A DNA stretch of 64,000 bases from Rhododendron vialii (Eukaryota; Streptophyta; Magnoliopsida; Ericales; Ericaceae). The stretch lies in the NCBI RefSeq assembly GCF_030253575.1, contig NC_080569.1, forward strand, positions 20,130,001 through 20,194,000. The letters are read 5' to 3'. The position numbers were made by a program, and so were the translations under genes. Under the pieces are notes generated by a model that saw only the letters and a program-made list of their open reading frames with translations, searched no databases and had not been told where the DNA came from. Position 1 is the stretch's first letter; each line of letters begins with the position of its first letter. Shown in pieces: positions 910-45,025 of this stretch.

Positions 910-1002
910 ATGGGGACGAAATTACCCTTGTCACAAGCACGTAAAACAGACAAAGTTGTTCTTGTGCTGGAGTCGGGAATCACAATTCAAGCGCCAAGCT
1001 AG
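910..1002 (+). pseudogene. Deleted remnant of small secreted-peptide gene
   Basis: A 30-codon frame starts METKLPVS-like (here MGTKLPLSQ) and runs directly from a K-V-V-L-V-L stretch into sequence matching the 3' part of the gene at 22254 (the GAGVI/GHHNSS region), so the hydrophobic core and the whole Gly-rich middle are missing. The upstream 50-60 bases also match the flank of the 22254 gene. It looks like an internally deleted paralogue. The frame is open by chance, and the signal peptide and C-terminal tail needed for the family architecture are absent. Confidence 0.6.
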
Positions 1003-1153
1003 TAGTATGTTCTGTTAAAAAAGAAGCTGCGCACGCAATTTCAGTAATTCGAAACTACGCAAGTAGTTTCGCCCCTACGAATCCAGAAATAATACTGATC
1101 GGTATCTGTTATGAATTTTTGTGGAACCCGAAGTGGGCTCCACATAAAATGTA

Positions 1154-1428
1154 CTCCCTCTGTCCCTTATTTAGAGTCCAGTATTCTATTTTGGGTTGTC
1201 CCTTAATAAATGCCATTTTGTAAAGTTGGGGGGGAGGGGATAAAAATTGTTGCATTGTCTATTTTGTCCCTAAAAATAGATTTCATTTTGAAAAGTTAGT
1301 GAGTAAAAGTGTAATGATGATAGGCAAGTAGGAAAAGTGGAGGAAAAAGTTGATGTGAAATGTGTAATAATATTTTTTTAATAAGTTGAAGTTACGAAGC
1401 AGGACACTTAAAAAGTGACGGATAGTAG
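1154..1428. mobile_element. Stowaway-like MITE (Tc1/mariner type)
   Basis: The left end starts CTCCCTCTGTCCCTTATT after a TA dinucleotide (1152-1153), the typical Stowaway terminus. The right end, read inverted, begins TACTATCCGTCACTTTTTAA with TA at 1429-1430. The element is 275 bp with no coding capacity. The right terminal repeat has diverged, so it is an old copy. Confidence 0.6.
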
Positions 1429-1679
1429 TATAATTGTATAGTGTATGTAGCGCGTTTATATGGTTAGGTAAATGGTCCAACGGAATGGAGTATAAGAATT
1501 AAGAAATGGTGGCTGTGCTCTACATTTGAATACTTGTGAAAGACCACCACGTCCAGAGGCTTATACCACATGAATAAAAGAACCCTTGAAAGGAGAATTA
1601 AATTCGAAATCAATTTTGAAGTATTTTAAGAGATTTTTATATCAAGAAGATTTCCATGGCAAAAGTTTTATTTTTTTAA

Positions 1680-1950
1680 AGGATAATTTTAAAGTCGATA
1701 CACTTTGAGCTGTTTACAGAAATTCCCTGTCTATTTTTTTTTTTTTAAACTAGGGTAGTTTCAAACTTGAAAGAGGAAAAAAAAAAGAATCTTTAAATAT
1801 TCTTTTTATGATTTATGGGATCTATTTTTAAATCATCCCTTTATACGTAGAATATGTTCTCAATGCATAACATGGAATACTGCTAGGTAGCAGAAACTAA
1901 AAAGGAGTAGTACATTGAATGAGAGTGATGAGTTGGTTTTCGGTGTGGTA
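1680..1950. repeat. Segmental duplication, copy A (partner at 24240-24550)
   Basis: Shares a long ordered series of matches with 24240-24550, including the stretches ending in TTTTTATGATTTAT, ATACTGCTAG and ACATTGAATGAGA. It lies upstream of the glycine-rich peptide gene at 2392. Its partner lies upstream of the gypsy element and, beyond it, the pseudogene at 36777, so a single duplicated unit was later split by insertion. Confidence 0.65.
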
Positions 1951-2340
1951 GATCCCGCGTGTGTACCTGCAAATAAGAACTTAACACCGGCGTGGTAAGT
2001 TAGTATATTTGTGGTTGCGGAGAGAAGTATATGTGTAAAGCTCTAGTGAAGGGTGGTATTGGAGATGCTTGCCCCCGAAGGCGAGGGAATTATAAATATA
2101 TAGGCATTTTCGGAGGTAGAATCCATTTAGGACTGGACTCTGTGAGATTGTTTGGTATCATGAATGAGAATCTTATTCGATGAGTCCAGTGACCGCCGGA
2201 GTCCCCCTTTCTTGTTGGGGATGGAATCTTAACGAGGATTGGACTGCCGGTAACTATCTCCATGGAGACTTGAAATCTTTGTGGGCCAAGCAATTATAAA
2301 TACAGTTTGAAATACATATTTATTAATTAATTAGTTTTAG

Positions 2341-2350
2341 CCTATAAATA
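2341..2350 (+). promoter_or_regulatory. Probable TATA box of the peptide gene at 2392
   Basis: CCTATAAATA lies about 45 bases upstream of the ATG at 2392. The same block (a TTAGCCTATAAgTAC-type sequence followed by CTAT..AGAGGGCAGT) is conserved upstream of the pseudogene at 36777, which supports it as part of the duplicated promoter. Confidence 0.55.
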
Positions 2351-2391
2351 CTAAAGCTATACTAGAGGGCAGTCGCTTGAGGGAAATTATT

Positions 2392-2619
2392 ATGGAGATG
2401 AAATTGTCCTTGTCAGCAGTAAGCAAAGTTGTTCTTGTGTTCGTTGTAGTGGTTTTTGTAATGGCAACTTCTGCGGTGGCCAAAGGCGAAGGATTTGGCG
2501 GCGGTGGCCGATTTGGTGGATCTAGCAGTGGTCGTGGATTTGGTAGTGGTCGTGGATTTGGCGGTGGTGGTGACTCAGGCAGTGGATCTGATAGAGGTGG
2601 TGGATTTGTTGGCGGATAA
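2392..2619 (+). CDS. Small secreted glycine-rich peptide, prematurely truncated
   Basis: The start is the ATG at 2392, which aligns with the start of the pseudogene at 36777 and matches the MExKL.LS family start. The protein is about 75 aa: a charged N-terminus, a signal-peptide core of Val/Leu (about residues 9-25) ending in A-V-A-K, then a Gly-rich domain with repeated G-R-G-F-G units. Glycine-rich proteins of this shape are usually secreted to the cell wall, but no specific role can be assigned. The TAA at 2617-2619 cuts the protein before a still-open, in-frame tail (2620-2715) that encodes the family's C-terminal part, including a hydrophobic stretch ending in L-S-Y-F-L. The gene has therefore lost its tail by a nonsense change or a local indel. 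The promoter block is duplicated at 36640-36776. The 3' flank is interrupted by the MULE at 2848. Confidence 0.6.
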   Translation: MEMKLSLSAVSKVVLVFVVVVFVMATSAVAKGEGFGGGGRFGGSSSGRGFGSGRGFGGGGDSGSGSDRGGGFVGG

Positions 2620-3009
2620 GGAGGAGGAAGGGCTCAGAGGTCAAGCGCTGCGTCTATGAACTCCACGTTTGTTCTTCCTCTGTTTTTCGCTATGCTCTCT
2701 TACTTCCTCGGTTGATAGTACAAATTAGCTATGTAAAAGCCTTGGAATTTTTAAAAACAAAGTTGTCTTTGATACTATTTCCTTGGTTGAGATTTTGAGC
2801 AGTTTTTCTACACCGTTGTTGAGTTGTTATAGGAGGGGTATATTTTTGGAAGAATTTTTCATAGGTCCACTATAGCACTTTCCAAATCCTCTAAGTCCAC
2901 TTCTAAATTCCAAAACCCCCTAAGTCCACTAACCTATTAGTAAGGATATAATAACCATAATATACCCCTGTTTTTAAAAAATTTGGAACCAAAAGTGGGT
3001 CTTTTATTC

Positions 3010-3363
3010 CCCTGGGCCTCTGTTCAAAACGAACGAGACTGAGAGGGAAAAACCCTAGACGGTTTGCTCCTCCACCTCAAACACTCGATCGCCTACCATT
3101 CGTCGTCGGCGTTCTTCGTCATCGTCGTTAGTCGATCTTTGTCGTCCACCAACGGTCGAGCTCATTCACCATCAGTCGCGTTCGTCTCCGTCGTGCTAGT
3201 TGCTGTTGTTCCCCTTCGTTTCAGTCGAACGCCGTCGCGCTCGTCGCAGTTGTTCCCTTTCGTTTTTCCATTGCCGTCAAATCCTATGTTGCAATAGATA
3301 CACTAGGTATGTTTCTTTTCGTTTCTCTCCATTGCAGTCACATCGTACAGGGAACTCATGCGA
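3010..3363 (+). promoter_or_regulatory. Probable leader of the MULE plus-strand gene
   Basis: The stretch contains the AAACCCTAG-type leader sequence typical of plant 5' UTRs (around 3048-3060), then a CGTC/TCG-rich low-complexity open frame with no recognisable domain. It sits just inside the left terminus and reads toward the Ulp1 gene. I infer an untranslated first exon or leader, with the hAT later landing in the following intron. Confidence 0.3.
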
Positions 3364-3600
3364 TTATATATGGTTATATGAATGGTTTGGCTAAGTTAAG
3401 TTAGGGTTTTGATTGCGAGTATATATGGTTATATCAAACTCTGATTGGTTAGGTATTGGTTAAGTTAAGATATGGTGTCGATTGCGAGTATATATGGTTA
3501 TATCAATCTTTGATCCGTTAGGGTATGGTTGAATTAAGTTAGGGATTTGACTGCTAGTATATATGGTTATATCAATGTTGGTTATATACGAATTTTGTTA
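3364..3600. repeat. Minisatellite with TATATGGTTATAT core
   Basis: TATATATGGTTATAT recurs near 3365, 3420, 3489 and 3558; the last three are spaced 69 bp and the units between are similar (GATTGCGAGT..TTAAGTTA..). Variants of the core are scattered through the rest of the MULE non-coding DNA (for example 7440-7680, 8530-8640, 13430-13480 and 17340-17480). Confidence 0.7.
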
Positions 3601-4051
3601 TAGGCAATGTTCTAAAAAGCGCTCGGCGCTAGGCGGGCGGCCGACCACCTTCAAGCTTCGAGACCAATTAATTGGCCATTAATCGCCTTTTAGCAATTAG
3701 TCGGGGTTTTTTTTTTTATTTATTTATAAATATTCTACAACCTCCCTAGAGTCCCTGACATTAATAATCACAGTTTTTCTAGTTGATGTGATATATCTTC
3801 TCTCCCAAAAAATTTCTTAGTTCTCTTTGGCTATCGGATACTCAATGTTAACACTTCTCTACATTTCAAATATAGAGACATAGAAGTTCAATATTCATAG
3901 TTCAAACCAAATAAAATCAAGTACGGAAAATTACTAGTCAATTACAAACTTCAACGTTCAAACCAAATGAAAACAAGTACGGAAAATTACTAGTCAATTA
4001 CAAACTTCAACGTTCAAACCAAATGAAATCAAGTACGAAATTATTAGTCAA

Positions 4052-6503
4052 TTACTCATCCTCTTCTTCTCCATATCCATGCATAACTTCTTCTCCATCG
4101 AACTCACACTCAAAATCCTCATCTACCTCCTCTTTGGTATCATCCTCCGACACAAAATCTTCCTCATATAGTTCTCATACTTCAATATTTCTAGTAGTCC
4201 TTCTAGGTTGAAGGACTTCATCCGCTCCCGTAGCTTCCCCAATTACCTCCCATGTAAGTCCCGAAACCGGGTCAACTTCCTCGTCACCACCTTCAACTAG
4301 CCATCCTTGTGCATTTGTTGATTCTTTAGTACGTAATACATCCTTCCCATTTCTTTTATTGTTGAGAAGTTTGGCATTGAATTGGACATAGACTAAATTG
4401 TTCAACCTTGTCGCATCTAGTCTATTCCTTTTCTTTGTATGTATCTATACAAAAAAAAATCTTAAGTTAATATAATTTCTTATGCATATATATACAAAGA
4501 AAGAGAGAGAGAGAGTGCGTGTATGTACTTACCCCCTCAAAAGTGCTCCAATTTCTCTCACACCCCGATGAACTTGAAGTCAAAGAGAGAATTCGAGTGG
4601 CCATTCTTTTCAAATTGGGTGTATGATATAGTTAGACCACCATCCAACTAGTCATGAGAGAAAGCACACAAAAAAATAGTACTAAGTAACTTAGCAAAAA
4701 GAATAATACTAAGAAGGAAAGTAACTAGTAACTACTTATTTACCCGGATCATAAGAGTCATTGTTCGTCGCACATCCCATTGCGGCTAATGGTCTTCCAA
4801 ATCCACCTTCTTTGTTCTTGTACTTCAACAACTCTCGATTGATGACTTCATCTTGAACATTGACATCATCGGGAAAGAAAGCTTCAACACAAGTAAGAAC
4901 CCCATCCATAATGATAGGATCATCTTGAATGGTAGAATTGTTGAAGAAGTAAAAAGGATTCAAAAAGTAAGCTGTCAAATGCAATGCACTATCTAGCCGA
5001 CCCTTAGCTTTCCCATCAATGACATCTAGTATTGGCCGGTAGTTAGTCTCAACTTGCTTGTATGCCGCTTTGATCTCTTCTTTTGCTTTTGTGAGCTCTC
5101 CATACACAAAGCCCATTGAGGGCTTACGATCCCCATCAACAAGTCGAAGAACTATCACCAACGGACCAAACACTTTCAAGCATAAGGTTACGCCATTCCA
5201 AAATGCCTGACTCATCACAGTAGCATATGCTGTTTTTCCCTTTGGGCTCTTGGCCCATTTACTCTCACCCCATGCATTGCTACTAAACATCGCTCGCAAT
5301 TCTTGTTTCTTTTTCATCAAACTTTGTAAAGTCAAGAATGATGTAGCAAATCGAGTAACACCCGGCCTCACTATGTCTCTCTTCTTCGTATATTTTCTCA
5401 TCATCGCCAATGTATTATGATGAGCATAAACAAATATAGTGAACGCTTTGGCCTTATCAATAGTTGCTTTAAACTTGGATTGCTTACCAATTCCTTCAAG
5501 CATGAGGTTAATTGTGTGGGTGTCACATGAGGTCCAAAATATGTTAGGCCTCTTGATCTTTAGCAAATCCGCCGCGGCCATATTGTTGGATGCATTGTCC
5601 GTCACTACTTGAACTACATTTTGTGCTCCTATATCTTCAATGAACTTGTCAACATAGTCAAAGATATACACCCCCGTGTGTGACACCTCCGAATCTTCCT
5701 TTGAAGAAAGAAAACAAGTCCCTTGCTTATAATTAACGCACAAGTTCATAATGCTTCTCCTTTTTCGGTCGGTCCAAGCATCGGTCATGATAGAGCAACC
5801 TGTCAAAGCCCACTCTTCTTCTTGCTTTTTGAGTAATGTTTTGGTTCTCTCCACCTCCTCCTTCAACAATGGTTCCCTTAGTTGGTATTGGCTTGGAGGT
5901 TGGTATCCCGGGCCAAATAGACCAACAGCTTCAACAAAACGTTTGAAGCTATCATTGTCTATGGCATGAAATGGAATGCCGGCTTCGTACACCCATCGAG
6001 CCAAGTATTGACTCACTTTATGACTCTTCTCCTTCCAAAAGCTATCATTTATGTTTGGTTGTCTCATCTTCTTAAATCCACTCGTGTCAGAAGAATCGGG
6101 ATTGATATCTGTATATCTATCTATGGGACCAAGAACATAGGGCCTCTTCTTTGATCCCACTGCCACATTTTCAATCTCATCACCTTCGGATTCATCACCT
6201 ACTATATTCACTTCCTCCCTAATTTCCATGGCTACTTTCTTCTTAGCTGCATTATCATCAATTGCCTTCTTACACTTTAATATGTCTTCCTTGCTTGCCT
6301 TAGTGCATGAGGCAACATCTCCCCTAATTTGAGCTAACCCCTCCAGTATACTGATTCCCACACAAAAGGCATTGTAGGCGGTCATTATTCCTAGGATCCA
6401 CAATAACTCCATAATCCCATCCAACATCAACCGAATTTCTTTTCAATAGCGGCGCAGAATTAGAAGCCTGTGAAGATGAAATATGAGTGGGATTCATTGA
6501 CAT
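4052..6503 (-). pseudogene. hAT transposase (BED, DUF659, hATC), broken
   Basis: Reading on the minus strand from an ATG at 6503, the first 50 residues contain a BED-type start (DVGWDYGV.VDP...QCLLCGNQ), after which the frame shifts near 6345. A long open frame (to 4736) then gives the DUF659 domain: GCSIMTDAWTD and the V.TDNASNN motif, which holds a catalytic-core Asp. After a GT-AG-like intron, the dimerisation region is recognisable (TPNLKRMATRILSLT, SSSGCERNWSTFEG), but its WW-containing start is in a different frame. A second intron (about 4450-4535) leads to NLVYVQFNAKL and an acidic tail interrupted by TGA at 4175, with the frame continuing to TAA at 4052. So there are at least two frameshifts and one nonsense change. 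It is clearly a hAT transposase and probably inactive. Confidence 0.85.
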
Positions 6504-6875
6504 TTGATAATTGATATCAGTCTATACTCTATAGTATTACTGTGCACCAAAAAAAAAAAACAGAGAAAAAAGTCAAGAAACTGTTAAGTGTTAACCTGAT
6601 TATAAGTTGAGATTTTAGTCTTTTACACTTTGTGTTAACTGATAACACCAAAAAATACTACACTTTGTTAATTTGTTTTAAGATTTAAAAAAAAAAAAAA
6701 AACTACATTTTGGCCACTGTCCACACTCCACAGTGTCCAGACGTGGCATATACCCAGGACTTTCAGAACAAAAACTTGCCAATAGTAAAAAATCCACTGG
6801 AGATCATAAGAGAGGGGGAGGGTCGAGAGAGAGAGAGAAACTGTGAGAGAGAGATCATACGAGAGAGAGAGAGGG

Positions 6876-6879
<4 letters not shown>

Positions 6880-6914
<35 letters not shown>
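6880..6914. repeat. (GA)n microsatellite
   Basis: An almost pure GA run inside the right third of the hAT, preceded by shorter GA tracts from 6815 and followed by a GGC-rich segment. Confidence 0.9.
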
Positions 6915-6918
<4 letters not shown>

Positions 6919-7997
6919 TTACAGCAGACGGAGGCGGCGACGATGGCAGACGGCGACGGCGGCGAGGATGGCAGCCGGCGGCGGCGGCGAGGATGGCAGC
7001 CGGCGGCGACTTCACTCTCGATCGATCGATCGTCTGCAGCCTAGGTAACAAATTAAGCCCTAAACTAAATTTGTATTCGAGCCCCTTTAAACTGGTTTTC
7101 AAAAAATAACAGTTACCCCCCTTCATTTTCGAAAAATACTGATTTTACCCCTATTAATCGCTTTTTAACCGATTAATTAGCTGATTAATCGGCTTCCGAT
7201 TAATCACTGATTAATTGCCGACTAAAGCCGATTAACCTCCCGACCGCCAAATCCAACCGCCGAGCCATTAATCTCACCGGAGATGGCAAAATTCCGATTA
7301 ATCGCCGGTTAATCGGCGATTAATCCCGCCTTTTAGAACACTGGTTATAGGTTGTGAATGTAAATTGTGTGTGAATAGATGGTTCTGTGTGGTCTGCTTT
7401 TTTAATATGGTAATATGGTGATTTGCGAATGCGAATGGTTATATATGATTATACGTTCATCTGGTTGCAAATTTGTTCTGTGAACATTTATGGTTATATA
7501 ATGGATGGTTCCTTGTGGTCTGCTTTAATATGGTTATATGGTGATATGAAAATGCGAATGGTTATATCTGATTATGCGTTCTTAGAAAATCCCAAATAAG
7601 ATAACATATAATGTTTAGGGGATGATCTGGTTGCCATTTTGTTCTGTGAATATTTATGGTTATATATTGAGGTCTGTTAGGCCACTGCGTGGACCAATTC
7701 AATTACGTAAAATAATTAGTTTTATTAGTTTTCATGAATAGATTTCATAGATTTATTTGTTTTATTTGTACATATATCATGCCATCATTTTAGGTTTTTG
7801 TTTAACAGCTGATATCATGAAACATAAATAATAATATACGAATACTTGAACCCATTTTTTTAACATATAAAGCTATATGTTTCCATATGTTTAACTTTTT
7901 TCTTATATGTGCATAGTTCGGAAAACAACAAGTAAAGAGTTGGTACCTGTTCAATACCCGACAAATGTCTGATTAGCAATCATTGCCCCTCCAGAAC

Positions 7998-10305
7998 AAA
8001 TGAGGCAGAAGAACACCTCCAGAAAGCGGACAGTAGAACCAGCTGTGACAAACATTGAAGACAGTGAGCAAAAATCCGAGGTCGCCAAGTCTTCCACACC
8101 CCCCCAGAAATGCGTGCCAACCGTCCACACTTGCACCTCAACCGCAAGGAAAAAGGTGACCCCGACAAAGAAAGTGAAGCCAATTAAAATCAATATCAAA
8201 AAGCCCGAAGTTGATACGGTTAGTGAGCGAAAGAGAAAAAGGCCAAATAAGGAGGATGAAGGAGTTATAATTTTGGCAACTCCGACAAAGAGAATGACAC
8301 GATTTGCGGATACAATGCAGAAAATGCAAAAGGGTAAGGACAAGCCAAGGTTGCGAATTCCTTGCAAAACAGAAAAGGGAAAGGGGAAGAAAGGGCAGAC
8401 AAGTAAAGGGGTCAAGGGCAAGAACACCAAGGCCAAGGGCAAGAAAGACAAGGGAAAGCAAAACATAGTGGAACCTGGAATGTCTAAAATTCCCTTGAAT
8501 TTCCCCAAAAAAACTCAGTACAGGTAATGATTTATGGTTATATGTATATATAGTTACTGATTTAACGTTATATACGATCTACTGTCATATGAAAAATTAT
8601 ATATGATGTTTTGTCCTGAAATATATAGGGTTATATATGATCTTCTGTATTTATTTAATAGTAATGTAACAAGATATAATGCTATATATGTTCCATATTA
8701 CGTCTGTCTATATTTTACTTACATATATGGTTAAATATCAACGTTTGTATATTATGCAAGTCCAACTTAATAACTGTGGTGAAGCTGCTGCAGACTATTC
8801 CTGACGGGGAATTCACAGAACGTCAAATACAATAGATCAAGAAAACACCCTTTGTGGAGCTTGTGTTTGTGATTGTCGAAGCGAAGCTGGATGAGGCCTA
8901 CGTAAGGAATAGCGATATTGACATTTTGAAGTTGGTAAAACAATATGAAGGGACAGGTGGAAGTTTCAAATTGGGGGGGGTGAGTCTGTCAAAATAACAG
9001 CCAAAGAGCTTACACTTATATTTGGGATACAATCTGGTCCTACTAGGATTGTTATAAATCCAACTCCAAGGGTCCCAAAATCAGAATTTGCATATCGACT
9101 TTGCCCTGGTTCGAAAGTGCAAAGGATATTGACCATTCCGGTACTGAGGGACTTCTTTGCCAAGGTTGTTAAAGGTACCACTTCGGAGGATGCAAAGGAC
9201 TTGGTGTGTGTCCTTTGCCTTTTGTTAATAGGGACGCTGTTTTTTGTAAACACACAAGCTAGAGTGAGTTGGGCTTACTTGGATTTCGTTGAACCTTCAT
9301 CACTGAAGAGGTCATCCATGAACTAAACATAAGGACTACTTCAAAGCCAACAAAAGTCAGAGGATGCGTAATGGGACTTATGGTAAAAATGGCTTCCCTC
9401 TTCATCATCCTTCATTTTTCCCCCTTATTATTGGTATGAGATAAACTAATTTGTGCACCAATTTGACAATAGTATTGGCTTTGTGAGCATGTGCGTTTAA
9501 TTAATCAAGGAAATCCACACAACATTTCAAGGTTCATCAAGTGGAGGCTTGGTGACCTAAGCAAGGCATTGCGTACAATCAACTTGGACTCTCTCGATCC
9601 TCTTTTGGTAAACATGATATAGGGTCATGTGTTTTTTCCATGGAAGTTGTTATATCCATTCTATAATAGTTGTAGTGCTACATTGTAAACATATCCATTC
9701 CCTCAAAATTATTATATAACCATATAAGTGCACAACTATTATATGTGTGTTATATTCATGGTTTACTATGTTTTTTTCAAGGTAATCTCCTCAGAGTTGG
9801 AGCCAAACGACAATGAGGAAGAGTTGCTCAGGTTTCTCGCAGACCCCAAACACAAGACTGATGAGAAGACTCAACAGTTGAAGACGACAGTTGAGAAGTC
9901 GGGCAATGAGGTCGTGGAGGATAGAACTTATGACGAGACAGATAGTGAGCAGGATGATATTGAACAAGGGAACGAAGTGGTAACCCTCCGAGATAGAATT
10001 AGAAAGTTGATTGAAGATAATGCAGACCGGACAATTTCTGAGCTTCGGAGGGAAAACATGGAGAAAAATGCTACAATTTTTGATCTTAGGAAAAGGATTA
10101 CAGAGCTTCAACAAACCACAACACCTATTTTGGATTCGAAGGCATTACTGCTCAATTTGATAAACACCACCTTGAGCACGAAACATGAGTTTACAGATAG
10201 AGATCGGTGGCATGCTCATAGAGAAAGACATTGTCGAAGAAAAACTGGAAGGGGCCGAAGAAATCATTGATGAGTATGTGACATTCTGTAACACAAACGT
10301 ACCAG
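7998..10305 (+). pseudogene. MULE Ulp1-gene, N-terminal exons (basic region and coiled coil)
   Basis: The first open exon (7998-8522) encodes a Lys-rich, nuclear-type basic region (several K-K/K-R runs) and ends at a CAG/GTAATG donor. The next segment (about 8787-9330) carries a conserved-looking domain (LIFGIQSGPTRIVINP, RDFFAKVVKG) interrupted by an in-frame TAG near 8835 and a frame change at a G8 run near 8976. A third piece (about 9471-9610) encodes YWLCEHVRLINQG..ISRFIKWRLGDL. The exon starting at 9782 is acidic and then a heptad-like coiled coil (RDRIRKLIEDNADRTISELRRENM), with a frame change near 10190. The order resembles the regions before the protease domain in plant Ulp1-MULE proteins. 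The gene is broken at several points. Confidence 0.6.
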
Positions 10306-10357
10306 GTATATCAAATATATTAGGTTATATATGCATGCTTTTTTATAGGGTAGCGCT

Positions 10358-11368: not shown

Positions 11369-11439
11369 ATGGTTGCCCTCTTTATATTCATTTGTGGGTA
11401 ATAAGTTTACAACAATAATTGTTCACGTTTTTTTTGAAA

Positions 11440-18259: not shown

Positions 18260-18268
18260 TATATTTTT

Positions 18269-18816: not shown

Positions 18817-18884
<68 letters not shown>

Positions 18885-21159: not shown

Positions 21160-21354
21160 TTACATAGCATAAGTTAGAAAGTAAGAGATGATGATGCTGA
21201 AGAAGAGTCCATTAACAAAGCTAGAGTGAGAGGAGGCGCTTGATGAGCACCAACACTTTTTCTTTCCATGCTTTTTAGCCACCACTGAAGTTACCATTAG
21301 AGCAACAATGACTGTGACCATCACAAAGATTCTGGCAACTTTGATCATCTTCAT
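21160..21354 (-). CDS. Small secreted basic Cys-containing peptide, 64 aa
   Basis: ATG at 21354. The protein starts MKMIKVARIF and has a strong hydrophobic signal-peptide core (about residues 8-26) ending V-V-A. A short basic stretch (KKHGKKKCWC) with two Cys follows, then a Ser-rich linker and a hydrophobic C-terminal tail ending I-S-Y-F-L-T-Y-A-M. The N-terminal signal plus hydrophobic tail without a following charged segment resembles a GPI-anchored peptide precursor, leaving a mature peptide of perhaps 20 residues. A probable TATA box lies at 21503-21512, and a paralogous broken copy lies at about 42790-43440. Function unknown. It lies divergently, about 900 bp from the plus-strand family member at 22254. 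Confidence 0.6.
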   Translation of the reverse strand: MKMIKVARIFVMVTVIVALMVTSVVAKKHGKKKCWCSSSASSHSSFVNGLFFSIIISYFLTYAM

Positions 21355-22253: not shown

Positions 22254-22508
22254 ATGGAGACGAAATTACCCGTGTCCTCACCTAGCAAAGTTGTGCTCGT
22301 CATAGTTGTTGCTGTAATGGTAACTTTAGTGGTGGCCAAAGGAGGCCGTGGTCGTGGATTTGGTGGTAGTGGAGGAAGACATGGCGGTGCTGGAGTCATA
22401 GCTGGACACGGAGGAGGGCATCACAATTCAAGCACCACCGCTTCAGTGTACTCCAACATTTTTGTATGTCCAATGTTTTTAGTTATTCTTTCTTATTTCC
22501 TTTCTTAG
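22254..22508 (+). CDS. Small secreted glycine/histidine-rich peptide, 84 aa
   Basis: ATG at 22254 (METKLPVS..). A signal-peptide core of Val/Leu/Ile (about residues 12-27) ends V-V-A-K. The middle is Gly/Arg-rich (GGRGRGFGGSGGRHGGAG), followed by V-I-A-G-H-GGG-HH-NSS and a hydrophobic tail ending I-L-S-Y-F-L-S. It is the best-preserved member of the family in the window: all three parts are intact, and the tail is placed as in a GPI-attachment signal. The protein would be secretory and possibly anchored at the plasma membrane or wall. No enzymatic motif is present. Its 3' flank carries two nested MITE insertions (22748 and 23146) that are absent from the sister copy at 37200-37390. Confidence 0.65.
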   Translation: METKLPVSSPSKVVLVIVVAVMVTLVVAKGGRGRGFGGSGGRHGGAGVIAGHGGGHHNSSTTASVYSNIFVCPMFLVILSYFLS

Positions 22509-27040: not shown

Positions 27041-27042
27041 AA

Positions 27043-27054: not shown

Positions 27055-27229
27055 CTAGGTTCAACACTCAGCCTTGGGTAGATTGGGTAGGCCACATTCT
27101 AAGAGCGTAAATCCGAATAGCTAAACGTTTACTGTATCTATTACTTCCCTAAACTACGATATATTTTACCTAATTATATCATATAAATATTTTATTTACC
27201 TATTGCAATTCAAACTCCGAGAAGTGATG

Positions 27230-30890: not shown

Positions 30891-30920
30891 GAGGACAAAA
30901 TTTTGTTAAGGGGGGTAGGT

Positions 30921-32124: not shown

Positions 32125-32155
<31 letters not shown>

Positions 32156-33167: not shown

Positions 33168-33172
33168 TAGCT

Positions 33173-36167: not shown

Positions 36168-36290
36168 TCTTAGATCGTGGAATTGGAAGGCGAAGCCCTT
36201 TGAATGAGAGAGAGAGAGGGGCCATGGGAGGAAAAATTGCAGAGAGAGAGAGAGCGCGCTACGTCTTATGTGAGGGAGTAAAAGATGGCA

Positions 36291-36322
36291 GGTGGATTAT
36301 ACGTGTCTGCCTATAATCCACC
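36291..36322. repeat. Short perfect hairpin
   Basis: GGTGGATTATA (36291-36301) and TATAATCCACC (36312-36322) form an 11-bp stem with a 10-base loop. Possibly the tip of a small foldback element; no termination role is implied. Confidence 0.7.
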
Positions 36323-36404
36323 CACGTGGGCCATTAACAATGAGACAAAATTACCATTATGGGCAACCGGCTAAAAGTGAAAGCCCAACAATTAAGGGAT
36401 ATAA

Positions 36405-36532
36405 TTGTCCAAATTGAGCAAAAATTGGCTAGCGATCAATTGCCAAAACTGGTTCTTCTTTAGTAGGGTTGTCCAAATTGAGCAAAAATTGGCTAGCGAT
36501 CAATTGCCAAAACTGGTTCTTCTTTAGTAGGG
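36405..36532. repeat. Tandem duplication of a 64-bp unit
   Basis: Two units (36405-36468 and 36469-36532) begin TTGTCCAAATTGAGC and look identical, indicating a recent duplication. Confidence 0.9.
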
Positions 36533-36776
36533 ATAGGACACATGTTACTATCCTATCTTCTCTGAACACACCCGACCCGAGCAAGCTGAACCCATACATA
36601 TAGTGGGGTAAGAGCTCTGCAAATCTAAGAACACTAATTAATTAAGAAGGGAAAAGGAAAACTCCAAATCTTTGCGGGCCAAGCAGATAAACACAGTTGA
36701 GAAATTTATTAGTGTTAGCCTATAAGTACGAAAGCTATCCCAGAGGGCAGTGGCCGGCCTGAGGGGAAGATTATAT

Positions 36777-37029
36777 ATGGAGATGAAATTGTCCTTGTCA
36801 CCTGCAGCAAGCTAGCAAAATTGTTCTTGTACTTGTCGTAGTGGTTTCTGTAATGGCAACTTCAGTGGTAGCCAAAGGATTTGGTGGTAGAGGAAGAAGC
36901 CGTGGCGGTGCTGGAGTCATAGCCGGACACAGAGGAGGAAGGTCTCAAAGGTCGAGCGCCGCGTCTTTTTAGTACTCCACGTTTGTTTTTCCTTTTTCTT
37001 TAATTATGCTCTCTTATTTCCTTGCTTAA
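36777..37029 (+). pseudogene. Glycine-rich secreted-peptide pseudogene
   Basis: ATG at 36777 begins METKL-like (MEMKLSLSPAAS) and hits TAG at codon 13. The rest of the family protein is readable in another frame: signal core (KIVLVLVVVVSVMATSVVAK), then Gly/Arg-rich GGRGRSRGGAGVIAGH, interrupted by TAG after R-S-S-A-A-S-F, then a hydrophobic tail ending M-L-S-Y-F-L-A before TAA at 37027. So there is one frameshift near the start and one nonsense codon just before the tail. The promoter block and 3' flank are shared with the copies at 2392 and 22254. Confidence 0.75.
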
Positions 37030-37390
37030 TATTGTAGACCATTTTGTTTTTCCTCTTTCTTTATTTAATTATGAAAAAGGCATCCGTGCGCCTCTGACAT
37101 TTCCCTTTGAGATTTGCTGTTAATAGTTCTACGCCAATGTGGAGACACGTTTTTTTTTTTTGCTGTTAATGTGCATGGAGACGTACGTTTGGAGGCCTGA
37201 AGGGGTGTATTTTGTGGGATGTTTGAATCGTATGAAGTTTGTTGGAAAGTTTTTATGAATTAATTTCATGTGTTATTAGTTGGGAATCGTTAATTGTGCA
37301 TATTTTGTTACAATTAACGGATGTAATATGTCGCCCAGTACCCCTGTTTTTGTACTTTCATAATTTTGGTGTATTATTGCCACAGTGTGT

Positions 37391-37393
<3 letters not shown>

Positions 37394-37474
<81 letters not shown>
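37394..37474. repeat. (GA)n microsatellite
   Basis: A long pure GA run in the same paralogous context as 23512-23571. Confidence 0.9.
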
Positions 37475-37476
<2 letters not shown>

Positions 37477-37941
37477 TGTGTGAGCCAACTAGAATGGGAA
37501 AAACAATTAAAATAAAAAAAAGCTGTGAAGTTTCGAACCATCTAATGACAAACATCTAACATGGAAGTTCACATGTTCAAATGAACAAATTAAATACGTG
37601 GTGTGAACTTGTGAGAGTCGTGTAGTTTTTAAAAAGTGGTTAGTTAAAAGCACTACAATAGATGTGGGTCTTAGAGCATCTTCAGCCTTGACCTATTTTA
37701 AGACCAAAATTTAAAATTTGGGCAAAACTCACAAAAAACCCTCTCCAATCTTTGACCCATACTCTTCCCCATTTTGGGTTTGACTCATTTGTTTGCCCAA
37801 ATTTGGGACAACCAAAGTTTGACTCAATTTTCCAACGTCTCTTTCTCTTTTTAGTTCAACGGCTATTTGCCTCTTTCCTTGCCATTCTTGCCATGCCTTT
37901 TTGAGAGCAGAAAAACAGCATAATTAAATAGATTGCTGCTT

Positions 37942-37964
37942 CTCTTCTCTTCTCTTCTCCTCTC

Positions 37965-38006
<42 letters not shown>
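37942..38006. repeat. CT-rich tract ending in (TC)n
   Basis: CTTCTCTTCTCTTCTCC.. passes into a pure TC run just upstream of the Harbinger ORF1 start; probably in its 5' leader. Confidence 0.85.
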
Positions 38007-38010
<4 letters not shown>

Positions 38011-38041
38011 AACGTACAATTGTGAGTTTCCAATTTAATCA

Positions 38042-39077
38042 ATGGATGAATATGAAATTCTTGAGGATTCTATGAGTCTGGAACAAACTCATGGAGTAGA
38101 AATTATATCGCAAAATTCTCCTGTGGCAGTAGGAAGCCAAAAGCAAACGATTCGTGGTAAAGGATTTACCATGGTGGAGGATGAGGCTCTGTGTCGAGCT
38201 TATTTGGCTATCTCACAAGATCCAATTATAGGCACTAATCAGACCATGGCGAATTTGTGGGAGCGTATACGATTGTGTTTCTCTTCCCAAGCAGATGTTA
38301 ACTGCAATAGAACCGCTGTTTCTTTAATGAAACGGTGGTCGAAAATTCAAAAAGCTGTGAGCAAATTTTGTGGTTTTCTTGCCCAAGTAGAAAGAAGGCA
38401 AAAAAGTGGAACCGGAGAAAAGGAGAAGGTAATTTCCTTTCAACCCAAAACTACGAAATTTTTGTTATATTTTTTTGTCTCTTTCATCTTGAATTTATGA
38501 TTACTAGATGGCCGAGGCTAAACGTATGTTTAGTATTGATGAACGTAATAAGTCATTCATGTTTGAATCTTGTTGGGAAATATTGCGCCACAGTTGTAAG
38601 TGGGATGAAATAATGACACCATCGCAAAAACCTACGGTCCAAACAGCAACTTCTTCAAATCCTTCCACTGGTACTCCAACATCCCTTGAATCTGAGCTAG
38701 ATTTGGACCAACAACCTTCAAGAGAGGGAGTAAACCGACCAAGTGGTATAAAAGCCGCTCTCGAATCACGAAGGAAGAAGGTGATTGATGATGTTAAGTT
38801 TGAGCAAACGGCAGCAAACCTGAGTCAAATAATAAATGTCTTGACTGGTATCTCCTCGCGAGGTATTGAACGAGAGCAACAAAAAGCTACTGATCGTCAA
38901 AAGAAGGCCGAGGATAGGGAGGCACAGCTATACTACTTGGCAGAAAGGAATGAAAGGGAGCAAAGGAAGGAGGATCATATCATAATGTCAATGGACATGT
39001 CAAACTTAACTCCTATGCAGAGAGCTTACTATGAGCAGCGTCAACAACAAATCATTGCTCGAACTGGGATGCTTTAA
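38042..39077 (+). CDS. Harbinger ORF1, Myb/SANT-like protein, two exons
   Basis: Exon 1 (38042-38428) ends GAGAAG/GTAATT; exon 2 (38508-39077) starts after TTACTAG. The joined protein is about 318 aa without stops. Residues about 38-110 hold the Myb/SANT-like domain (GKGFTMVEDEALCRAYLAIS.. with TMANLWERI and later MKRWSKIQKAV). The C-terminal half has an ESCWEILRHSCKW motif and a charged helical region rich in Arg, Glu and Gln (about 215-300), as in the NAM-associated C-terminal domain of plant PIF/Harbinger ORF1 proteins. In this superfamily ORF1 binds DNA or partner protein and is needed with the transposase for movement. Start chosen at the first ATG after the TC tract. Confidence 0.85.
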
Positions 39078-39853
39078 GTTTATCTTTCAATTTTATGGTG
39101 TTTGAGTATTGGCATCTTTTTAGGAACACAAGGCCTTAACAGGAGAAGATTGTGATTGAATTCGATTGAAAAATGGCATAGACGCATAGTTCTTACAGGT
39201 TACGACATTGAAACTGGACTGCCGGTTGAGATTTTTCACATTGCTCGAACTGTGAAGTCTCTTGTTGGTAGCAACTTGAAGAGTGACAAGTAACCAGGAG
39301 GTGTGTTGCAGTTTTTGCTTATTTTGTACTTTTCGGTACAAGGAGTAGGAGCTGATACAATCTGCAGGATTTCTCTTTGATTAGATTGCTTTTAGTCTAA
39401 AGTAAGAAAATTATCGGCAGAAATAGCGTTGCCTTCTCTCCATAAACATGGTAAAATATGCACTTATTTACATTTTAAGGCTTTTGTGTGAATTGCTGGT
39501 TTTCTTCTCTCTCTTTTTCTTTGTTGTCCGATAGCATGTGGTGCTTGTTTTGAAGGAATAGCTTATAGAATATGAATATCAAGCAAAGCAGTTTTTTAGA
39601 TTCACATGATTGCACTTTTACATAGTCCGGTAACGATTAAGCCGTAGCTCTGGTTTTGACTTGGCTTTTTTACTTCAAAACCAAAAACAATGAGCTATTG
39701 CACAATCAAAAAGACAACGAGCTATTCCACAAAAGTAGCAAAATAAGATCATGTATAGCAGCCAAACAATAATGGCAGATAACTAATAGCAGCAAGACAC
39801 ATTATTTTCTTAATCAAAACTTCCAAACTTCTACCAGTTTGAGAACTTCCAAA

Positions 39854-41176
39854 CTACATCTCTCCATGTCGTTGCCAAAGATGCTCAACTAAGTCATTGC
39901 GGAGAGTGTGATGAGCATCCTTGTTTCTAATTCCGACATGACGAGATAGAAATGATTCAAAATTATCATCACGTTCCCGCGAAATTGCCACTGGTTGGTT
40001 CCTCTCTGATGTATAAGTAAAATCAGTACAACTCTCTCCCTCATCCTCGATGATCATATTGTGCAAAATAATGCACGTCTTCATGATTTTCCCAAGCATT
40101 TTTCGACCCCAAAATCGTGCCGGTCCTTTTATGATTGCAAATCGTGCTTGTAGAACCCCAAATGCCCGCTCCACATCCTTTCTTGTTGACTCTTGCATCA
40201 TTGAAAAGTGCTGTTTTTTGGCTCCTTGAGGAGATGAAATAGTTTGAACCAATGTTGCCCATGGAGGATATATGCCGTCCGCTAGGTAGTATCCCATATT
40301 ATAGGCATGTCCATTGATAGAGTAATTAGCGGGAGGAGCTCGCCCTTGGACAAGTTCATCAAAAAGAGGAGAACGATCTAAGACATTGAGATCATTGTGG
40401 GATCCTGGCATTCCAAAAAAGGCATGCCAAATCCACAAGTCATAAGAAGCAACGACTTCAAGAATCATTGTAGGTTTTTTAACATGACCGCAATAGGCAC
40501 CTTTCCATGCCGTCGGACAATTCTTCCACTCCCAATGCATGCAGTCCAAACTTCCTAACATTCCGGGAAATCCGCGAGCCTCCCCAACAGCAAGCAATTT
40601 ACTAACGTCATCTGCCGTTGGAGATCTTAAATACACATCGCCAAATTTTTCGATAATCGATTGACAAAAATGGTTGAAGCATTCAATTGTAGTGCTTTCT
40701 CCTAAACGTAAGTACTCATCAGTTGCATCGGCCGGCATTCCATAGGCGAGCATTCTCATTGAGGATGTCATTTTTTGAAGGGAGGATAGTCCACGTACCT
40801 GGCATGCATCTAGCTTTTGAACAAAGTAGGGATTATGTTCTTCAATAGCATTCAGAATCCTCACAAATAGATCACGTCTCATCCGAAAGCGTCTACGAAA
40901 TACCGATGGCGAGAAAACTGGATATTCGGAAAAATAATCCGCAACTAGTCGATCGTGACCCGCTACTCTTTCGCGTCGGTAGTATTTCCGTCCCGGAACA
41001 GAGCCTCCCCATTGCTTGCATTTTCTTGTATTTTCTCGCACCATTTCTAGCATTAAGCCATTATTTGCCTCATAGAGACCTACAAGTGTGGCTATGGCTA
41101 TTTCTTCATCACTATCATCAGAAGAGGAGGATGATGATGATGAAGAAGAAAGTGCGGAATATTTAGAAGGCTCCAT
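39854..41176 (-). CDS. PIF/Harbinger transposase (DDE, HARBI1-like), 440 aa
   Basis: A single uninterrupted 440-codon frame from ATG at 41176. A Ser-rich N-terminus with DDSDEE is followed by a helical DNA-binding-like region (RRRFRMRRDLFVRIL). The DDE nuclease motifs are present: first Asp in GMLGSLDCMHWEWKNCP, second Asp in GSHNDLNVLDRSPLF, Glu in KDVERAFGVLQARFAI. The protein also has the family's QEST..DVERAF and KIMKTCIILHNMIIEDE segments. The length is normal for plant PIF transposases. No damage is visible, so it could encode active enzyme together with ORF1. It acts in the nucleus to cut and rejoin TIR ends at TTA sites. Confidence 0.9.
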   Translation of the reverse strand: MEPSKYSALSSSSSSSSSSDDSDEEIAIATLVGLYEANNGLMLEMVRENTRKCKQWGGSVPGRKYYRRERVAGHDRLVADYFSEYPVFSPSVFRRRFRMRRDLFVRILNAIEEHNPYFVQKLDACQVRGLSSLQKMTSSMRMLAYGMPADATDEYLRLGESTTIECFNHFCQSIIEKFGDVYLRSPTADDVSKLLAVGEARGFPGMLGSLDCMHWEWKNCPTAWKGAYCGHVKKPTMILEVVASYDLWIWHAFFGMPGSHNDLNVLDRSPLFDELVQGRAPPANYSINGHAYNMGYYLADGIYPPWATLVQTISSPQGAKKQHFSMMQESTRKDVERAFGVLQARFAIIKGPARFWGRKMLGKIMKTCIILHNMIIEDEGESCTDFTYTSERNQPVAISRERDDNFESFLSRHVGIRNKDAHHTLRNDLVEHLWQRHGEM

Positions 41177-41488
41177 TGTTTAGTTGATGTGAGAAATGAA
41201 CCAATCTCTCCAACATATATCGGGTAAGAATTTGTCCAGGATAAGAACATATTGAGAGGGAGATTTGTTTGCAAAAGGGGAAAAATGGGAGGGAAATAAA
41301 TTAGGAGATGTAGTTGGAAAAAAATGGAGGGAAACAAAAATGGAGGGAAATACTATTGAAAGCATAAAAAACAATATATTTGGGTAATGAATCATTTTGC
41401 CATTGGAGTGAGCCTAACCCAAAATGGGTTTTGACCCAAATTTTGACCCAAATTTGGATAAAAATTTGGGTCAAGGTTGGAGATGCTC

Positions 41489-41675
41489 TTAGCCCATCTA
41501 ATTGTAATTTTTGACTTTCGAGGGAGAGGTTTGGGGTTTGAGTCTATTGAGAGATGTCAAACCCAATAGATCGATGTGGCTCTTAGCCCATCTAATTGTA
41601 TTTCTTGACTTCCGAGAGAAAGATTTGGGGTTCGAGTCTATCAAGAGATGTCAAACCCTCCCACTCCCACTCCCA
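41489..41675. repeat. Tandem duplication, about 94-bp unit
   Basis: Two units begin TTAGCCCATCTAATTGTA (about 41489 and 41583) and continue through GAGAGATGTCAAACCC. The second unit's start (GATGTGGCTCTTAGCCC) also resembles the left flank of the Harbinger (GATGTGGGTCTTA), so this repeat is the host DNA the element entered. Confidence 0.8.
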
Positions 41676-41691
41676 CTCCCACTCCCACTCC
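41657..41691. repeat. (CCCACT)n hexanucleotide repeat
   Basis: About five units of CCCACT in a row after the 94-bp tandem units. Confidence 0.85.
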
Positions 41692-41990
41692 TGTTGTTAA
41701 CCCACTAATTCTAAATGAAAAATACCGAGAGTGGGAGCTAAATGTGCAGAATCGTACGTAGTGGCAAAAGAGAAAATGTTAAAACTAGCCGTTGGGAATG
41801 AAATTTGCGGGTACGTAAGACGTACTTAGGTGTGAACTTTGGGGAGATTAGTGCACGAGAGTAGTGTTGTGTGAGGTGGACAGGACATACATGTGGAGGA
41901 CATGCATGCACCAATTAACATGATTTCCTTCCTATGCTGCTTTAGAGATCATGCATGCATGTACAATTAATAGAAGAATAAAAACAAAAG

Positions 41991-42551
41991 TGTGGGGGCT
42001 TCGGTCATGGCCTCGGCAATCTAACCGGATCACCATTAACCGAGGCTTCATATCGGCACGGGCCGGTGTATCCTTCTACTTACTCGCTTGGTATCAAGTC
42101 TCTTGTTGACACTTCGGTTAATTACCGAAGTGTGCATTCCGTTAAGGTCTCTGGAAAGAGTGTAGCACAGCAAGAGGGGGACCAAGAGCGACACATGGCG
42201 GAAAGAATCATCTAGGCCAGGTCTGGCCATGTGCTTCGTAACCGTCTTATCCGGTGCGTCATCTATGATGTCACCCGAGGCGGTTACCTGAGCGTGACCT
42301 CCACGCGCTAGCTTGGAGGCCAAGTAAACTTAGGTCTATAAATACAAAGGGATACTCATCTTTGAGAGGTATGCCACATTACCCTAACCCTAGACCTAAA
42401 CCTCTCTTCCTACATCTAACTTGATCGTCGGAGGGTCACTGGGTTATTCTAGCCCTAATGACTTGTTGCAGGTTCAGAGGCGGGTGAACAGAGTAACGGA
42501 AGAGGAATACCAGCTCAGGTTAAGGTCCCTCCTGTAAATCGAACCCCTGCA
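41991..42551. mobile_element. Solo LTR, 561 bp
   Basis: Starts TGTGGGGGCTTCGG and ends CGAACCCCTGCA (TG...CA), flanked by AAAAG on both sides (41986-41990 and 42552-42556), a perfect 5-bp target duplication. TATAAATACAAAGGG near 42339 is a plausible promoter. No internal region is present, so a full element was reduced by LTR-LTR recombination. The superfamily cannot be fixed from the LTR alone; the ACTTGATCGTCGGAGGGT motif is of a kind seen in plant gypsy LTRs. Confidence 0.8.
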
Positions 42552-42789
42552 AAAAGAGCTAGCTAGAATGGAGTAAAACAAAAGAGATTGAGGAGGGGAA
42601 GAAAAAAAGAAAAGAAAAGAGTTTATCCCTGTATCATAGATTCTGTCGTCACTCGTAATTTCTTTTTATAATAATTATTTTGAACCTAAAGCAATGATTT
42701 GGTACTTACGCATAGGTACGTATATATAATAATCTTAAAGAAGGAATGGAGACTCGATCTTCTTCAGGTGCATGTGAAATTAATACTAC

Positions 42790-43440
42790 TACGTTTACAT
42801 GGCATAATCAAGCTAGCTAGCTAGCTAGAAAGTAAGTGAGGATGCTAATAATTAATCAAGCGTCCATGCCATTAAAAAGGCTAGCTAGCTAGCTAGCTAG
42901 AGTGAGGCTATGCAGAGGAGGCGCTGGCCTCAACACCAACATGCACTTGTTAGAGCAAGTGCACCAATAAATAGGTAAATTGGCTATTCATAACATAGTT
43001 TTTGTACTTTACCTATTTGCTTTTTGTATTACTTCTACAACAATACTCTGTACTTGCTCTCTATTTTATTATAATAGTATTTTATCATCTTAAATGAGGA
43101 GAGAGAGAAAGAGAGAGAGAGAGAGAAAGGACAAACCGATAAAGGTGGTGTTGACATTAAAATAATAATAGTTTATCCTTTTGCTATGCTACAGTTGATA
43201 TATAGCTATAAGTACCGAGTTTTTTCAATGCATGTATAATACCTAAGCAAATAGCGAGACTGGTGTAGTTAGCTTTTTATGATTTTGCTCTTTATTTTAG
43301 CTTAAAGAACCTAAGTACAAAGTCTGGTGTACTTGCTCTTAGTAATTCTTTCCATATATGCTTTTTGGCTATGCAGTACTGAAGTTTCCATTACAGCAAC
43401 AATCACAAAAAGTATTTTGGCTACTTTGATCATCTTCATC
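42790..43440 (-). pseudogene. Small secreted-peptide gene broken by a MITE
   Basis: The 5' part (about 43375-43440, minus) encodes MKMIKVAKILFVIVAVMETS, very close to the start of the peptide at 21354. The 3' part (about 42790-42949) matches its basic-linker and tail region (AGAAAGTAAG.., GAGGAGGCGCT.., CAACACCAACA). Between them sits the MITE at 42953-43338. Small indels (a GCTATGCAGTA-type insertion and GCTAGCTAGC expansions) are also present, so it is a pseudogene. The upstream duplicate flank is at 43672-43860. Confidence 0.75.
42953..43338. mobile_element. Tourist-type MITE, 386 bp
   Basis: GAGCAAGTGCACCA at the left and inverted GAGCAAGTACACCA at the right match at 13 of 14 positions. 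TTA flanks both sides (42950-42952 and 43339-43341), the PIF/Harbinger-type target duplication. Removing it restores alignment with the gene at 21354. Its termini differ from those of the Harbinger at 37674, so a different transposase probably moved it. It has an internal GA-rich patch near 43098-43127. Confidence 0.9.
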
Positions 43441-43637
43441 CTCTATTTGCACCCCGAAAAGAAAATAATAAACAAGGACTAATGGAATGTGGAAGAGAAA
43501 TTTCAAAAAAAGAAAAAAAAAATGTGGAAGAGATTTGTGGTGACAAATTGGCCCGGTGGCACTCGGTACACAATGATAAGGTCCAATTGACACTACTTTT
43601 TTCTACAATTAATTGCAACTATTGCTATTTCTACAAG

Positions 43638-43641
<4 letters not shown>

Positions 43642-43668
<27 letters not shown>

Positions 43669-43670
43669 TT
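43642..43670. repeat. (ATT)n microsatellite
   Basis: About nine ATT units upstream of the broken peptide gene. Confidence 0.85.
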
Positions 43671-43671
43671 A

Positions 43672-43860
43672 AGACTTTTCCCTAGGAAATCTCTTATTCA
43701 AAGAGGCAAGATGCTTGCAGCTTTTATGGAGGGGGCGTGACAAGAATCTGTGGAACGGATTGGAGGTAGTAATATTTTCTACCAAAAATAGAGAGTTAGT
43801 ATATATGTATTCCAATAAATCTCCGCCATGCTCCCAATTACTGAAGAATTCAATATTGCT
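43672..43860. repeat. Segmental duplication (partner at 21540-21760)
   Basis: Counterpart of 21540-21760, with matching GGCGTGACAAGAATCTGTGG and CCAATAAATCTCCGCCATGC stretches, placed upstream of the broken minus-strand peptide gene. Confidence 0.75.
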
Positions 43861-44689
43861 AGAAAACAACTCTTACATTTAATACCCGAAAAGGAGTTCT
43901 CTGTTTTATATGAGTCTAAAACCCAACTCACCAACGTGATGCGGAGTGCGTACGTCTTTCAACGTTTCTTGAGCTTTGGACCGTTTGCAGCCCAAACGTC
44001 ACATGTAAGTAGAGCTGCTGCCCATCGTCCACGAGACGTACGTTCTGAAAAGCCTAGGGTTGATTGGAAACGGGCCACCGATAAATAGATTCAATACACA
44101 TCGATCGTTTTTTTCTTTTTCTTTTTGACATCGTTTAGCCTTTCGAAAAGGAAAGTTTCTTGTGTTAGGAAATATTTCGTATGCTTATATCTTCACATAG
44201 GTAACTCCGTCTTTGTTGTCGTTTGTTTTGGCAACCTTCTATTAATTTCTAGAATTTGATAGGTCAACATCATATTTTGCATTTTTGGTAATTTATTTGA
44301 TTTAGGCTTTATTAGTTTCCTAGTTTTTGTTTTGGGCTTCTCCAATATTATAAGTACTGTTGTAAGCTAGCCCTGAGCAAGTTGGTGTTCAATTATCATT
44401 GAATTATAATAGAGTCTAGAGAGAGTTTTTCTATACCTATTTTGTTTGGGATTGTTCTTCCACGTTCATCTTTTCTTTTTTATACGTTTTCCTGCATCTT
44501 AACTCCTACGTTTTTTTTATTCCTTAGCAAATCAAATTAGTCTTCCGAGTATGAAACCTTGTGTTTTTATCTAATTACCAGAAAACTATATATCTACCTT
44601 CTAGCCAAATTTTGTTTTTTTTTTAAAAGTGCAAAATCTCAGGTTGGGGTTCGTTAGCTCTAAGCTGTTGAGGCATATATGAGACGAAG

Positions 44690-45025
44690 ATGAAACTTTT
44701 GTTCTCAGCAGCCAAAGTTGCCCAAGTTGTTGTTTTGGTCACACTAGTCATTTTTGTAATAGCAAATTCGGTTGAAACCAAAGGTGGCCGTGGTGGAGGT
44801 TCGGGGGGTGGTGGTGGTGGACGAGGAGGAGGCAGAGGACGCGAACGGAAGCCTCCAGGAACTTGGAGTAGGGGTGGTGCAGGAGCTGTAATTATATATG
44901 GAGGGAATAATCATCATCATGGAAGTTCAATCGCCCCATCGACATCAGTGTGTTCTCGCTTCGGAGTTGATCATGGTCTACTTTTCATGATCAATCTTAT
45001 AACTTACTTTCTGATGTTTATGTAA
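44690..45025 (+). CDS. Secreted glycine-rich peptide, 111 aa
   Basis: ATG at 44690. Signal peptide MKLLFSAAKVAQVVVLVTLV.. (core about residues 11-26), then a Gly/Arg-rich domain with a G-run, a short basic proline segment (RERKPPGTW), the family's GAGAVIIYGG and NNHHHGSS motifs, a Ser/Thr linker and a hydrophobic C-terminal tail ending I-T-Y-F-L-M-F-M. It is the longest member of the cluster and appears intact. The His-rich segment could bind metal, but this is only a possibility. An ATG at 44679 opens a four-codon upstream frame whose TGA overlaps the main ATG (ATGA), which may damp translation. Together with the broken gene at 42790-43440 it mirrors the divergent pair at 21160/22254. Confidence 0.65.
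   Translation: MKLLFSAAKVAQVVVLVTLVIFVIANSVETKGGRGGGSGGGGGGRGGGRGRERKPPGTWSRGGAGAVIIYGGNNHHHGSSIAPSTSVCSRFGVDHGLLFMINLITYFLMFM

Follow-up and report, generated by a model that had tools for sequence, protein, structure and literature searches.

Small glycosylphosphatidylinositol (GPI)-anchored peptides are a kind already known in plants, and the AG-peptides exemplify a very short GPI-anchored layout. Classical wall glycine-rich proteins are not known to carry a hydrophobic C-terminal tail, nor are processed peptides of the SCOOP/CLE/CEP type, which possess a conserved C-terminal active motif. Two glycine-rich proteins, At1g07135 and At3g04640, appear in a review's list of Arabidopsis GPI-anchored proteins (PMC6726743); a passage of another article cites At3g04640 as aiding wall reinforcement and defense signaling (PMC3902988), and a table in a third includes At1g07135 among the genes lowered by the IDL7 peptide (PMC5853212). 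Here, we describe a dispersed family of very short peptide genes in Rhododendron vialii, analyzed in a 64,000-nucleotide stretch of DNA (C13:20130001-20194000, hereafter the window, to which plain position numbers refer) and searched for throughout the genome (532,647,506 bases, 13 contigs). The copies are homologous, and the intact ones combine a signal peptide, a polar core, and a hydrophobic C-terminus. We propose, with a probability of about 0.55, that these intact copies encode GPI-anchored micro-peptides at the membrane-wall interface, similar to small GPI-anchored glycine-rich proteins.

A preliminary description of the window had reported seven related copies, and related DNA was found at all seven places. 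Three of these are intact genes. The first (22254-22508, + strand, 84 amino acids), defined by its open frame, DNA matches, and a paralogue on contig C9, encodes a signal peptide (approximately residues 1-28), a Gly/His/Arg-rich core with GGAGVIAGHGGGHH, a Ser/Thr-rich spacer, and a hydrophobic tail ending in SYFLS. The second (21160-21354, - strand, 64 amino acids), defined in the same way with a paralogue on contig C8, encodes a signal peptide (approximately residues 1-26), the core KKHGKKKCWCSSSASS, and a hydrophobic tail ending in SYFLTYAM. The third (44690-45025, + strand, 111 amino acids), a divergent, probable member recognized by its open frame and by segment shuffles, encodes a signal peptide, a Gly/Arg-rich core with GGAGAVIIYGGNNHHH, and a tail ending in TYFLMFM. 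Based on their cores, the other members fall into two subfamilies: A, comprising C9, 22254, 2392, 36777, and 910, with a Gly/His/Arg-rich core that contains GG(V/A)GV(V/I)AGH in C9, 22254, and 36777; and B, comprising 21354, C8, and 43440, with a Lys-rich core that contains KKCWCSS in both intact copies. At the DNA level, 36777 matches 2392 (77% identity, 228 columns, E 2e-43) and 22254 (72%, 223 columns, E 6e-32), 910 matches 22254 (76% over 75 columns, E 2e-7), and 21354 matches 43440 (74%, 112 columns, E 1e-14), while the match between 44690 and 2392 is weak (70.7% over 82 columns, E 3e-4).

Two further intact members, not visible in the window sequence alone, were recovered by genome searches, in which all match counts are lower bounds. 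With the 22254 protein as query, an A paralogue of 82 amino acids was identified at C9:7209167-7209412 (64% identity, E 5.9e-17), and with the 21354 protein, a B paralogue of 75 amino acids at C8:9509329-9509553 (55% identity, E 1.5e-9). The C9 protein in turn retrieved, at E < 1e-6, itself, 36777, 22254, and 2392 in two pieces; its DNA alignment with 36777 (74% identity) spans query bases 1-422 of 424, including approximately 170 bp upstream. DNA searches with 36777 and 21354 returned at least five and at least three stretches, respectively, queries included, all within copies already named. Comparison of the C9 region (100 kb) with the window and its flanks (164 kb) revealed no evident synteny among the 70 of 108 matches listed, in which the two regions have the family gene and repeat-like stretches in common. 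A weak match to the C9 peptide at C7:14169927-14170118 (- strand; 38%, E 0.0046), located in an open frame of 104 amino acids, was not counted as a member and is a possible further distant one.

Kinship between the parts of the proteins was assessed using segment-preserving shuffles, which keep the composition of the signal peptide, core, and tail separately. Aligned end to end, the intact A pair (C9/C13) and the intact B pair (C8/C13) gave z scores of 11.2 and 12.3, and in all three A-A core pairs none of 2000 shuffles reached the observed score, so that the core is conserved within A. The four A-B pairs gave z scores of 4.3-5.6, reached by 0 of 500 shuffles, with single segments weaker (signal peptides, 0-6 of 1000 shuffles; tails, 0-12 of 1000). 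On account of these segment-shuffle scores, a common origin is most likely for the signal peptides of the two subfamilies, and likewise for their tails, whereas the cores of A and B are unlike. The earlier proposal that the copies share a signal peptide and a GPI-like tail is thereby supported; the related proposal that the ends are conserved and the mature part is divergent describes a difference between the subfamilies and finds no support within them.

These comparisons also bear on the suggestion that the A proteins are simply very short class I wall glycine-rich proteins, B being unrelated and the hydrophobic ends alike by chance. Such an origin would agree with the Gly content of the A cores (17 of 26 residues in C9, 13 of 25 in 22254) and with A-B segments that rise only moderately above the shuffles (C9/21354 signal peptides, 6 of 1000; C9/C8 tails, 12 of 1000), but we judge it improbable: the A and B signal peptides match in DNA (21354 vs 22254, 83% over 53 columns, E 3e-9, in the signal-peptide part only), the tail of C9 matches that of 21354 (z 6.0, 0 of 1000 shuffles), and Pfam searches of six proteins (22254, 21354, 44690, 2392, C9, and C8) at E up to 1 yielded no glycine-rich family and nothing above the cut-off.

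The position of 44690 is less clear. Its whole protein gave z scores of 2.9, 4.7, 5.4, and 2.4 against C9, 22254, 21354, and C8 (5, 0, 0, and 10 of 500 shuffles). Its tail stands above the shuffles against 21354 (2 of 1000) and not against C9 (52), 22254 (160), or C8 (989), the comparison of its signal peptide with that of C9 gives no clear result (78 of 1000), and its core exceeds the shuffles against 22254 (41 of 2000) and not against C9 (1302) or 36777 (332). Because some single segments do not match, we regard 44690 as a probable, not certain, and distant member of the family. Searched against the genome, the whole protein gave at least 21 hits other than 44690, the best of them at E 0.03 or higher, and the 2392 copy was among them; with its last 56 residues as query, only 44690 itself was found below E 1. 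Four matches to its last 48 residues (32-38%, E 1.0-1.3), at C3:6002454-6067173 and C3:13217855-13217995, sit in open frames of 205-218 amino acids and perhaps represent a local family with a similar C-terminus.

The layout of signal, polar middle, and hydrophobic end, scored with thresholds chosen after the family had been seen, was found in 3 of the 188 window open reading frames (ORFs) of 40-150 amino acids, exactly 22254, 21354, and 44690, while 30 simulated windows contained a mean of 0.3 and a maximum of 2 such ORFs. A home-made rule recognized a signal peptide in all five intact members, each with permitted cleavage sites and a hydrophobic core that scores 3.3-3.9 on the Kyte-Doolittle scale over 9 residues. 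When this rule was combined with a GPI rule and applied to ORFs of 40-150 amino acids in the window and 200 kb of other stretches of the same genome, 4 of 833 ORFs passed, all four of them family members; the C8 copy lay outside this set. Among those passing were 21354, 22254, and 44690, the three copies for which signal-peptide and GPI-site prediction had originally been suggested as a check.

Integrating these features, the intact copies would encode very short secreted precursors, whose signal peptide may be cut immediately ahead of a conserved Lys; in four of the five intact members the predicted site follows VVA or AVA. The Ser-rich spacer and the hydrophobic C-terminal tail would then act as a GPI-attachment signal, and the remaining cationic peptide would measure approximately 14 residues in 21354, 27 in C8 (where no GPI site was called and the end of the mature part was set by default), and, for 44690 and the A members, between approximately 25 and 56. 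The anchor would hold this mature peptide on the plasma membrane's outer leaflet, where it would most likely make contact with metal ions or the acidic polymers of the wall, subfamily A by its Gly/His/Arg residues and subfamily B by Lys/CWC, and act in wall or stress responses, as reported for other small GPI-anchored glycine-rich plant proteins.

Alternatively, the peptides may be exported and not GPI-anchored, the tail forming a second transmembrane stretch or being removed, and the product being a soluble or membrane-embedded apoplastic peptide with an antimicrobial or signaling function. We consider this unlikely, if well worth keeping in mind. In all five intact copies the tail follows a Ser-containing spacer and runs to the C-terminus, and the conservation of the A pair extends into the tail (z 11.4); the B cores have only two Cys and show no multi-Cys framework such as that of known antimicrobial peptides. 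A non-anchored product would nevertheless account for the cationic cores with few acidic residues, the compact KKCWC core of B, the failure of the C8 tail under the GPI rule, and the 2392 frame, which, if expressed, stops before the tail and would yield a soluble peptide.

Several points weigh against the GPI-anchored reading. The signal-peptide and GPI rule is home-made, its cut-offs were fixed once the family was known, and, although four of the five intact members pass it, its GPI half taken alone is also passed by 4.5-16% of whole-protein shuffles of the five intact members, making that half weak by itself. The C8 copy fails the GPI rule, with a Lys within its tail. The scarcity of acidic residues in the predicted mature parts (1 of 148; binomial p 6e-7 vs an assumed 11%), a point in favor of the reading, was gauged by a test that leaves out Gly-rich codon bias, and the putative binding to wall or metals is read from composition only. 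At3g04640 is labeled an 'RNA-binding glycine-rich protein' in a further article (PMC3645707), in conflict with the GPI list. Finally, four of the seven window copies (910, 2392, 36777, and 43440) are broken, leaving three intact with the S/T-Y-F-L tail in frame. The copies constitute a genuine but small family, in part decaying, whose short products would be secreted and probably GPI-anchored.

Conservation of the reading frames was evaluated from nonsynonymous (dN) and synonymous (dS) divergence. The A pair (C9, 22254) gave dN 0.205 and dS 0.415 (Fisher p 0.03), and the B pair (C8, 21354) gave dN 0.261 and dS 0.738 (Fisher p 0.005); because dN is lower than dS in both intact pairs, the frames have been maintained as coding for protein along some, if not all, of the branches. 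For the signal peptide, middle, and tail, respectively, dN was 0.248, 0.187, and 0.182 in the A pair and 0.169, 0.252, and 0.370 in the B pair, values that rest on 11-28 codons each and have low power. In both pairs dN of the middle thus lies inside the span set by the ends or close to it, and the idea of a fast-evolving mature part, which the preliminary description had put forward, finds no support within the subfamilies, the middle resembling the ends and overall dN lying below dS.

The broken copies display different kinds of damage. In 2392 (2392-2715, + strand, subfamily A), the signal peptide and Gly-rich core are open up to an in-frame TAA at 2617-2619, past which the tail SSAASMNSTFVLPLFFAMLSYFLG, with SYFLG, is still readable in the same frame. 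In the A copy 36777 (36777-37032, + strand), the frame changes within the signal peptide, and farther on a TAG (36970-36972) precedes the hydrophobic SYFLA tail. The remnant 910 (910-1003, + strand), which matches 22254 DNA in two pieces, joins the start of an A signal peptide directly to the His/Ser end of the core, with most of the middle and the tail lost; its second piece (969-996) matches 22410-22437 (0 of 2000 shuffles). The B copy 43440 (42795-43439, - strand), identified by its DNA match to 21354 and by shuffles, is split into a signal-peptide half from 43439 down and a core-and-tail half at approximately 42941-42795, both degraded; the latter half can be aligned to 21354 from the core through the tail as far as the 21354 stop, a score reached by 0 of 2000 shuffles. 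Between them lies an insert of approximately 390 bp (42953-43338, exact ends judged by eye) with inverted terminal repeats of 15 nucleotides (14 paired) and a TTA at either end, at 42950-42952 and 43339-43341, which we take to be a Tourist-type element. At least three broken copies had been reported, and four were confirmed; the decay implied by birth-and-death evolution is supported.

Such damage raises the question of whether any window copy yields a working peptide, or whether the locus is a relic whose short frames are open by chance. In keeping with the latter, most copies are broken, transposon genes lie between them, the dN/dS comparison of each pair takes in the branch to C9 or C8 as well and is no proof that the window copies are alive, and pieces of the broken copies compared with C9 (dN/dS 0.184/0.326 for the 2392 signal peptide, 0.124/0.206 for the 2392 tail, and 0.176/0.271 for the 36777 tail) give ratios similar to, and not clearly different from, those of the intact pairs. 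Against it stand the excess of dS over dN in both intact pairs, the intact C9 and C8 copies, and the 0.3 ORFs with the layout per simulated window vs the 3 seen; a mere relic therefore appears a slim prospect.

Regarding local arrangement, 21354 (- strand) and 22254 (+ strand), both intact, are head-to-head neighbors approximately 900 bp apart. A single duplicated block as the source of this pair and of 43440/44690 was considered and not adopted: two stretches of DNA are common to the pairs, one at the B signal peptide (74% over 112 columns) and one farther upstream (76.7% over 189 columns), and the A side offers no convincing match. A scan of six 500-bp upstream regions for TATA, W-box, G-box, and CGCG motifs gave no common picture. 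Approximately 620 bp past the end of 44690, two exon-like frames (45647-46876, - strand) belong to an OPT oligopeptide transporter gene, near which a further frame (48142-48531) has no Pfam match. An open frame of 563 amino acids with DUF659 (4736-6427, - strand) is presumably hAT-type transposase-like. An open Plant_tran/DDE_Tnp_4 transposase frame (39854-41176, - strand) lies beside two opposite-strand frames (38042-39077, + strand), of which one, when scanned, had no Pfam match; the arrangement resembles a PIF/Harbinger element. Two direct copies of 875 bp (54442-55316 and 57191-58065), 99.8% alike, enclose a gag/protease frame (55300-57132, - strand) with Retrotrans_gag and aspartyl protease matches; this is a recent long terminal repeat (LTR) element, seemingly with gag and protease only. 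Among database candidates, sub-threshold Pfam matches to SecG, MFS_2, and Fungus-induced (in the scan of 22254, 21354, 44690, and 2392) and to DUF1980 and DUF2554 (for the C8 copy) were rejected, as was the one PDB match (E 0.9) between the C8 copy and a chain named VPU protein.

Annotation readily overlooks or mislabels genes that span only 60-110 codons and have low-complexity cores. If anchored at the cell surface, the present peptides would enlarge the GPI-anchored repertoire by a family of very small members, within which the Lys/CWC type has no named relative in the searches made, and they offer a compact case of homologous ends with different cores. More tentatively, and with considerable doubt, one may picture a single chassis, with export signal and GPI tail in common, that presents either of two short cationic cores, unrelated to each other, at the surface of the plant cell; if this were true, the shortest micro-peptide would have approximately 14 residues, and the neighbors 21354 and 22254 could be expressed together.

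The available portions of the open-licence PMC literature on such peptides contained no name or description for the family. Its placement is drawn by comparison. At1g07135 and At3g04640, which are longer than the present peptides, are listed as both glycine-rich and GPI-anchored, a likeness of description; subfamily B, unlike them, has no Gly-rich core. AG-peptides have the very short GPI-anchored layout that is proposed for the family and differ in their cores: no Ala/Ser/Thr-Pro run occurs in the present ones (Pro count in the mature parts 0 in C9, 22254, and 21354, 1 in C8, and 3 in 44690), which are not built on the Pro/Hyp dipeptides that define AG-peptides, and the C9 and 22254 mature parts, having no Pro, therefore have no arabinogalactan sites. 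SCOOP/CLE/CEP-type peptides likewise derive from short secreted precursors in local clusters, while the C-terminus of the present family, unlike theirs, is hydrophobic. Class I plant glycine-rich proteins share with subfamily A a signal peptide and a Gly-rich core, and the family is set apart from them by its hydrophobic C-terminal tail and by the Lys/Cys/Ser-rich composition of B. The family overturns nothing known and is placed closest, by description, to the small GPI-anchored glycine-rich proteins.

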